23,871 nt of DNA from a virus, in IMG/VR virus record IMGVR_UViG_3300014962_000049, positions 1 to 23,871 of that record, one strand, 5' to 3'. The notes under the pieces are model-generated. The model made no database searches, was not told where the DNA came from, and saw nothing but the letters and a program-made list of their open reading frames with translations. This document shows positions 2,718-4,405 of this stretch, piece by piece. A program made the translations under genes and the position numbers. Numbering within the stretch: the first letter of the stretch is position 1; every line of letters starts with the position of its first letter.

Positions 2718-2745
2718 TTGACAAAGCCGATAGGTGCCCTGTAAC
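2718..2745 (+). promoter_or_regulatory. Candidate promoter ahead of the helicase/primase cluster
   Basis: A perfect -35 hexamer TTGACA (2718-2723) is followed after 16 bases by TGTAAC (2740-2745), a fair -10. Transcription would begin near 2752, just at the 5' edge of the cloverleaf-like element. The -10 lies in the loop of an 8-bp inverted repeat (2732-2739 with 2748-2755, one G-T pair), which could instead be an operator. This is a by-eye match to the sigma-70 consensus. Confidence 0.35.
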
Positions 2746-2757
2746 TTGGGTACCTAT

Positions 2758-2832
2758 GAGGGACGGGCAGTCACTAGGCTTAAGTGACGGCTACGGCCCG
2801 ATAAGATAGTGGACCTCCACTGTTCGTCCCTC
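2758..2832 (+). ncRNA. Candidate structured RNA or cruciform, cloverleaf-like, 75 nt
   Basis: A closing 8-bp stem (GAGGGACG 2758-2765 with CGTCCCTC 2825-2832) encloses three hairpins. These are a 6-bp stem with a 7-nt loop (2770-2775 with 2783-2788), a 3-bp stem capped by a TACG tetraloop (2789-2791 with 2796-2798), and a 5-bp stem with loop ACCT (2808-2812 with 2817-2821). The size is tRNA-like. However, the 6-bp arm lacks U33, no TTCGA T-loop is present, and the arm order is wrong for a tRNA. I recognise no riboswitch or ribozyme consensus. It could be a 5' leader element of the gene at 2871, a free ncRNA, or a DNA cruciform at an origin. Confidence 0.4.
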
Positions 2833-2870
2833 ACACATTCCACACAAACAACACACCAAGGAGGCGTGTT

Positions 2871-3317
2871 ATGAATACCCCAACCAGCAAGGACCAGTCC
2901 ATCATCACTCAGGTAGCCGCGAAGATTGCGGCTGACCTTACCCCTAAGTCGGACGATGTAATGAAGAACATTTCCGATTGGGTCATGGCGTTTGATGCCT
3001 GTGCCGAGGCGTTGCTCGCCAAGGCCATGTACAATGAGGGCCACAGCGCACCCAGCGCACCGGCCCCGACCGCAGACCCCGTTCAGGTGGCAACCGAGCG
3101 CATCATGGAAGCGTTCCCGAACAGCACCGTCCAGCAGTTTGAGGTGCGAGTCAAGGGCCAACAGCACGGACCCCTGCCCGAGTGGCTGGCATCCGCATGC
3201 CGTGCCAAGGGCGTGACCGAGGTGTGGGACAACCGTGACAAGTTGTCGCAGAACCCGAAGCGTCCGTGGTTCAAGTCCACCACCACCGAGGATGCCTTTT
3301 GGGCACCACGCAAGTGA
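2871..3317 (+). CDS. Hypothetical protein at the head of the replication cluster (148 aa)
   Basis: 148 residues; ATG 2871 has a near-perfect AAGGAGG (2858-2864). The N-terminal ~55 residues are helical. A short Ala/Pro linker (HSAPSAPAPTADP) follows at ~58-70. The C-terminal ~75 residues are basic, with 'PLPEWLASACRAKG' and a Trp/Pro-rich end (KRPWFKSTTTEDAFWAPRK). This conserved-looking C-terminal block is of a type seen in many phage proteins of unknown function beside replication genes. DNA binding or helicase loading is conceivable from position but not shown. It sits directly upstream of the DnaB-like helicase with an 11-nt gap, so it is very likely co-transcribed with it. Confidence 0.7.
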   Translation: MNTPTSKDQSIITQVAAKIAADLTPKSDDVMKNISDWVMAFDACAEALLAKAMYNEGHSAPSAPAPTADPVQVATERIMEAFPNSTVQQFEVRVKGQQHGPLPEWLASACRAKGVTEVWDNRDKLSQNPKRPWFKSTTTEDAFWAPRK

Positions 3318-3328
3318 GGTAAAACATA

Positions 3329-4405
3329 ATGACAACCTCCGAGTTCACGGAGCGTTGGGCGGCACTGGGGCGGGGCGAGCATATCGCCCCGCCCGAACCG
3401 TCTATACGCACACATAAGTTCTACGAACCGCTGGTGAAAGCGGCTGACGAATACGTACATTGGGCACAACATCCGAACGACCGTATCTATACGGGCTTCA
3501 AGGACTTGGACGCGGAGATGCGTGGCATCGCCCCGTCCGAACTATGCCTGATTAACGGGTACTCGCACTCAGGTAAGACCCTGTTCCTGTTGCAGATTCT
3601 CGTAGCCAACGCTGACAAGCCGGTAATATATTTCTGTCCCGACGAACCACGCACACTCACGCTCATCAAGTTGGCGTGCGTAATGCATGGTGTGGACGCG
3701 AATGACCTAGAGCATAGGATTGCGAACGCTGACCCCAACGCGATTGCGTTGTTGCGTCAGACCGCACAGGACCACTTCCCCAAGTTGGCAGTGTTTGACC
3801 AAATGATGACACTTAATGACATGGAGAAAGCCATGGCTGAGGTGTCTGATATGTGGGGCAAGCCTGCGCTTATGGTGTTTGACTATTTGGAACTGTTGCA
3901 GGGTGGAGGCGAGGACGTACCGTCCAAAGCAAACACCATCAAAGCGTTCGGCAAGCGTCACAATATACCGCTGTTGGTGTTGCACCAGTCGTCACGCACC
4001 GCAGGTGCAGACGGCAAGAAGATGACCATCTCCTCGGGTGCGTACGGTGGCGAGCAGCAGGCCACCCATATTGTGGGTGTGCGGCGCAAGAAGTTTGAGA
4101 TTGAATCTATGATTCGTGACGTTGAGGAACGCATTGAACGTGCGACCACCAGCACCGAACGGCTCATGGAGAAACTGGACTCCTTGCGTTACGACTTGCG
4201 TATCCATCAGAACACGCTGACGGTGAACCTAGTCAAGTGCAAACGTCCTGCGTCCGTCCTGTTGGACGACATGGACTTTGAGATTGAATACGGCACCGGA
4301 AGGTTGACAAGGTTGCCTAACGGTGTGCTTCCATGGAAAGCCAGCGACGAACCCGTAAGCGAGGACGACACTGAGCAGTTGTCCATACTAGATGAGGATT
4401 GGTGA
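3329..4405 (+). CDS. DnaB-type replicative helicase (RecA-fold ATPase)
   Basis: 358 residues with a RecA/DnaB ATPase core: Walker A GYSHSGKT (77-84), the DnaB-type 'FCPDEP' with candidate catalytic Glu E106, Walker B LMVFD with D185, the LLVLHQSS sensor (H219/Q220), a GG/Gln patch near 240-244, and a C-terminal 'LTVNLVKCKRPAS' strand like the DnaB 'vvKnR' end. A coiled-coil insertion (about 255-290) sits before the last strands. There is no DnaB N-terminal primase-binding domain, as in many phage helicases. Role: ATP-driven 5'-3' unwinding at the phage fork. ATG 3329 has GAGG at 3317-3320. The stop overlaps the primase start (TGATG), which fits a helicase/primase pair. Confidence 0.88.
   Translation: MTTSEFTERWAALGRGEHIAPPEPSIRTHKFYEPLVKAADEYVHWAQHPNDRIYTGFKDLDAEMRGIAPSELCLINGYSHSGKTLFLLQILVANADKPVIYFCPDEPRTLTLIKLACVMHGVDANDLEHRIANADPNAIALLRQTAQDHFPKLAVFDQMMTLNDMEKAMAEVSDMWGKPALMVFDYLELLQGGGEDVPSKANTIKAFGKRHNIPLLVLHQSSRTAGADGKKMTISSGAYGGEQQATHIVGVRRKKFEIESMIRDVEERIERATTSTERLMEKLDSLRYDLRIHQNTLTVNLVKCKRPASVLLDDMDFEIEYGTGRLTRLPNGVLPWKASDEPVSEDDTEQLSILDEDW
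3368..3394 (+). other. Perfect 11-bp GC-rich hairpin inside the helicase gene
   Basis: GGGCGGGGCGA (3368-3378) pairs fully with TCGCCCCGCCC (3384-3394) around the loop GCATA, starting 39 nt inside the helicase gene (codons 14-22). It has no downstream T-run, so it is not an obvious intrinsic terminator. Its core resembles the 941-966 hairpin. Confidence 0.5.

Follow-up and report, generated by a model that had tools for sequence, protein, structure and literature searches.

What is encoded in the gap in front of the replication genes of an uncultured phage that is represented by a contig of 23,871 nt (IMG/VR record IMGVR_UViG_3300014962_000049; this whole stretch is referred to as the window)? 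On the 5' side of the gap lies the gene of a PD-(D/E)XK exonuclease (1816-2652). On its 3' side follows, on the plus strand, a gene for a protein of 148 aa (2871-3317), which is the putatively controlled gene and is always found just upstream of the helicase gene (alignment A1); it precedes the genes of a DnaB-like helicase (the next gene, 3329-4405, plus strand, assigned with PHROGs/Pfam) and of an archaeo-eukaryotic-type primase. Positions 2732-2832 fold with -50.7 kcal/mol versus -32.4 +/- 3.5 kcal/mol for shuffled sequences (z = -5.2), and none of 200 shuffles was as good. The initial annotation saw here a cloverleaf-like architecture, in which a perfect 8-bp closing stem encloses three hairpins, one of them with a TACG tetraloop. 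The closing stem is real, but its length was understated: this stem, P1, comprises 15 contiguous pairs, two of them G-U, between the plus-strand positions 2757-2771 (UGAGGGACGGGCAGU) and 2819-2833 (ACUGUUCGUCCCUCA), a form that is backed by the relatives and by dinucleotide shuffles of the gap (P = 0.005). The three inner hairpins do occur in the minimum-energy fold, where half of a CCUCC sequence is paired, but the relatives do not keep them (including GGC-TACG-GCC). What the relatives support is not a cloverleaf but a single long stem, P1, with an inner helix P2 that varies and a (G)ACCUCC that is left unpaired. P2 of the window is formed by CACUA (2772-2776) and UAGUG (2807-2811), both on the plus strand, and L003 (CGCUA/UAGCG), L004 and L002 have a helix in the corresponding position, with pairing assigned by inspection and energies computed. 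The displayed segment G-ACCUCC (2812-2818, plus strand, CCUCC core 2814-2818) is located between P2 and the 3' strand of P1.

The fold does not belong to one of the common RNA classes. ARAGORN found no tRNA in it, and Rfam 15 gave no match at the gathering score or at E<=5, which agrees with the earlier view that it is neither an ordinary tRNA nor a recognised riboswitch or ribozyme; a tRNA mimic, which had been offered as one explanation, finds no support in a fold that gives no tRNA call and whose cloverleaf is unconserved. The core of a type II hammerhead (CUGANGA plus GAAA between stems I and III) is absent from the window, as is GGACGAAA. A U-run as in an intrinsic terminator is absent 3' of the stem, and P1 is followed by CACAUUCCAC.

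Using the helicase and the 148-aa protein as queries, 88 distinct upstream regions were collected from IMG/VR phages, and 21 hairpins remained after removal of near-duplicates as a non-redundant set from uncultured phages, each from the gap that precedes one and the same small gene. No hairpin is found where the 148-aa gene overlaps its 5' neighbour or begins within about 60 nt of it, so that many relatives with a short or missing gap are devoid of it, and a long hairpin is present in most gaps of more than about 95 nt. Exceptions among the long gaps, which do not have the usual hairpin, are L012/L015, L137/L145 and the group L198/L202/L277/L279; the latter contains ACCUCC in another arrangement and was excluded from the counts. 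The nearest sequenced phage DNA gave no match to the window, and no relative was found in GTDB genomes, hence no hint to a host. For the 148-aa protein itself, Pfam, PHROGs and PDB gave no clear match, an AlphaFold model with Foldseek no usable fold match, and INPHARED no direct match, although a single record of an uncultured podovirus (MW202803.1) is matched by the C-terminus of a distant family member. This C-terminus is strongly conserved in the family (QHGPIPEWL...VWDNRD...NPKRPWFK...AFWAPR).

P1 comprises 10-15 pairs in the relatives, and more if one mismatch is allowed. Its sequences are unrelated across lineages, e.g., GGGGUCAGCCGACG in L301, GUGUCGGGGUUUCC in L282 and GGACGGGGAGCGGU in L313, and it nevertheless beats dinucleotide shuffles of its own gap in all 21 leaders (P = 0.005-0.015). 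The compensatory stem changes in related phages that had been called for as support for an RNA were found in the alignments A7 and A8. In A8, the alignable group, all P1 cells are paired (100%) and both sides have changed at seven out of nine pairs; the covariation score of the whole structure is 0.483 compared with 0.158 after shuffling and at most 0.102 with slid partners, and the score of A7 is 0.350 compared with 0.227 after shuffling. Among the deviations from Watson-Crick pairing in the stems there are 14 G-U, no A-C and one other, P1 having been detected on Watson-Crick pairs alone. A G-U pair is tolerated in a plus-strand RNA stem, whereas in DNA both G-T and A-C are mismatches. This asymmetry points to selection of the element as plus-strand RNA, and judged from these sequence comparisons the hairpin is real. 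The proposal of a new structured leader RNA is the one that fits an element which covaries, has no Rfam family and is part of the leader of the gene that precedes the helicase gene.

The initial annotation mentioned neither a promoter nor the conserved CCUCC. A -35-like TTGACA (2718-2723, plus strand), which recurs with the same spacing in L002, is followed after an 18-bp spacer by a -10-like TAACTT (2742-2747, plus strand), with a predicted start just 5' of the hairpin. All 21 leaders have a TANNNT upstream of P1, the plausible ones ending 5-18 nt before it, and 12 of them contain the extended -10 element TGNTANNNT, compared with 5.5% in shuffled sequence, and therefore the transcripts probably start at or just before P1. 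The further 8-bp hairpin that had been described in front of the fold exists as a near-palindrome of 10 positions including one G-T (arms ATAGGTGCCC / GGGTACCTAT; 2730-2757, not assigned to a strand), but it overlaps the -35/-10 promoter and would remain mostly untranscribed, because the proposed start site falls just before the hairpin. In L002 this place is taken by a palindrome with other arms; both are centred on the -10 element and may represent an operator for a repressor.

Downstream of P1 the leaders share their order with an A/C-rich, G-poor linker (2834-2857 in the window, plus strand; 42% A, 30% C, 17% U, and 11% G over the 21 linkers), followed by the Shine-Dalgarno (SD) sequence, in the window AAGGAGG (2858-2864, plus strand), the proposed partner of CCUCC. 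The leaders of A7 and A8 contain a conserved UGUAAUACC-like sequence right after P1, which also opens leaders without the hairpin. The SD of the 148-aa gene often forms the loop of a hairpin with a 5-bp stem. In many relatives it is exposed by a small hairpin, for example CAAGC[AGGAG]GCUUG or GCAUCU[AGGA]GGAUGC; the stem differs between the relatives, and the version in the window (2850-2869) is weak. An SD-hairpin as obligatory partner of the element was considered and rejected, since such hairpins occur with as well as without the leader element (54% and 31% significant, respectively).

The sole sequence common to nearly all loops is CCUCC. It is present in 19 of the 21, where 1.39 would be expected and 2000 loop shuffles gave a maximum of six. 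CCUCC is the core of the anti-SD sequence of the 16S rRNA and as such the complement of a ribosome-binding site. With P1 formed it lies mostly inside an unpaired segment of 6-9 nt, so that the leader contains an unpaired complement of its SD; in the window this holds for the comparative form alone, which is 3.2 kcal/mol above the minimum-energy fold. The structural setting of the segment varies: it is a bulge 3' of P2 in the window, L301, L314, L003, L004, L005 and L166, a 5'-side bulge in L297, and an apical loop in L313, L182 and L014. Coding sequence shows no depletion of CCUCC. Coevolution of CCUCC with the own SD was tried as an explanation and rejected, because the pairing energies between loop and SD show no preference for the own SD over those of other leaders (P = 0.82) and just the shared core pairs. 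In L181, L036, L313, L301, L282 and L284 the own SD is GGAGA or GGAGC, and CCUCC is still kept in the loop.

The element is not restricted to one gene. We scanned 25 records of relatives, whole or nearly so, for CCUCC-hairpins and additionally searched after one conserved early gene, and an analogous hairpin was found before a second, different early gene in at least eight relatives. These include L361 (GACCCUCC) as well as L364/L022, L019 and L014 (UAUCCUCC), whereas L366 (CCCCUC) and L368 (AACCUC, partly within the stem) carry variants. L011 and L040 have (C/U)ACCUCC with covarying stems, and both are without the element at the first position. Besides L011 and L040, hairpins before the second gene are located at L361:3850 and L366:8691, and on the minus strand at 15557 in L364 and 6428 in L365. 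In six further relatives (L370, L372, L374, L376, L392, and L037) the hairpin in the gap before this second gene is replaced by the motif of a type II hammerhead ribozyme.

Taken together, we favor an element that controls translation in cis by pairing of its loop with the SD downstream, and we assign this reading a probability of roughly one half. The claims on structure and sequence are strong; pairing with the SD of the same mRNA is likely, as far as sequence can tell, and would presumably lead to repression, which some signal may relieve. The element would be the 5'-terminal hairpin of the mRNA that opens the replication gene cluster, in which the long rigid P1 presents CCUCC in a short unpaired segment. 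Once transcribed, the SD (GGAGG) would pair with the displayed CCUCC across the flexible A/C-rich linker, leading to a long-range pseudoknot if the SD is free and to a loop-loop contact if it lies in a small hairpin. Such pairing would compete with the 30S subunit, and in this way the element may set or switch the synthesis of the 148-aa protein and, through translational coupling, that of the helicase. Pairing within the same mRNA is proposed because of the exact complementarity to the SD, the free structural setting and the repeated placement of the element before SDs. Besides the missing preference for the own SD, it speaks against this reading that CCUCC is half paired in the minimum-energy fold of the window and that the hairpin is absent from many relatives.

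The complementarity could instead be a recognition sequence. A role as operator for a protein of the phage or its host, e.g., the 148-aa product, is rather unlikely, although the layout has a precedent: gp32 and gp43 of phage T4 repress their own mRNAs via a pseudoknot or hairpin tens of nucleotides upstream of the start codon and a sequence over the ribosome-binding site (PMC3014915), and the gene here is linked to replication as well. However, the T4 operators are read by the gene's own protein, whereas the leader described here conserves an anti-SD sequence and has no known protein. CCUCC is kept whether the unpaired segment is an apical loop or a bulge on the 3' or the 5' side, which is easier to explain by base-pairing than by a protein that makes one fixed contact; no nucleic-acid-binding fold was recognised in the 148-aa protein, relatives retain this protein without the hairpin, and an unrelated second gene bears the same element. 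The last point favors action in cis, too. Action in trans is in our opinion unlikely; in that case the early leader would bind the SDs of other mRNAs, of the phage or the host, or would titrate a factor by imitating the 3' end of the 16S rRNA. The missing energy preference for the own SD and the retention of CCUCC at SDs other than GGAGG leave room for a trans role, and likewise for a protein site, but inspection revealed no terminator by which a small RNA could be set free, a leader could hardly match the number of ribosomes, and the repeated position right before an SD suits cis.

It is improbable that the element is a mere 5' stabiliser or processing hairpin with an incidental CCUCC. These genomes do hold many perfect intercistronic hairpins 15-60 nt before genes with an SD, but the loops of those before late genes are purine-rich (e.g., AGUAAG) and do not contain the CCUCC that the leader loops have far above chance. 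An antitermination RNA of the nut/put type that modifies RNA polymerase is even harder to reconcile with the data: the site is promoter-proximal and the untranslated C-rich, G-poor linker could favor Rho, but no boxA-like element was recognised by eye, the loop context is variable, and the exact SD complementarity would be left without explanation. A DNA cruciform, which had been suggested for an origin, or a single-strand replication origin would fit the site just upstream of the replication genes, but can practically be dismissed, given the G-U bias of the stem deviations and the many relatives that have the same genes without the hairpin.

Compared with known systems, the preferred cis-acting control element resembles SD-sequestering leaders and pseudoknot riboswitches such as preQ1 and SAM-II, which likewise carry an SD complement within the leader. 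Unlike these it has no conserved ligand pocket and no Rfam match, and stem sequence and topology are free, with just the stem and the displayed CCUCC conserved. Regulatory RNAs with C-rich loops, such as RNAIII of Staphylococcus aureus, also have a hairpin loop complementary to SDs; they act in trans as small RNAs, whereas the element described here is part of the leader of the adjoining gene. No description of the element was found in searches of the open-licence literature, and this phage leader RNA with its displayed anti-SD is apparently undescribed. The element adds a leader-RNA motif of phages that is missed by sequence searches and Rfam, because almost nothing but CCUCC and the pairing is conserved, and it is a testable case of SD/anti-SD control with minimal design. 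Speculatively, and with considerable doubt, one could go further and assume an undescribed class of phage RNA, whose members would have nothing in common but a rigid stem that exposes the core of the 16S anti-SD. Such an RNA would be a transferable module in front of several early genes, where self-cleaving hammerheads could take its place, and would mimic the anti-SD tail of the ribosome, in cis or trans, to time early translation.

Type II hammerheads (RF02276) are already known from intergenic regions of phages (PMC3088659). They have a catalytic core, which the element in the window does not have, and their motif fills the equivalent early-gene gap in other members of this phage group. As an anti-SD hairpin or a hammerhead motif occupies the same operon position in one phage group, both may have related roles in shaping early mRNAs. 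About 22 hammerhead motifs were counted in 12 or 13 of the 25 related phage records and none in shuffled controls; they score 24-27 bits with Rfam Hammerhead_II, below the gathering score of 37. Many of them end some 20-40 nt upstream of an early-gene SD, and the sites include L372:8495 and 9055, L370:13248 and 14215, and, on the minus strand, 10126, 7784, 7508 and 6742 in L374 and 9067, 8696 and 5653 in L365. In nearly every motif, stem II consists of GGAC/GUCC; once the RNA has been cleaved, GUCCAG could base-pair with the SD that follows (CUGGA). The gaps before late genes contain perfect hairpins of 12-15 bp some 20 nt upstream of the SDs, and the 6-nt loops of these hairpins are rich in purines (AGUAAG, AUGAAG); examples lie on the minus strand at 7709 in L357, 8595 in L359 and 15729 in L371.
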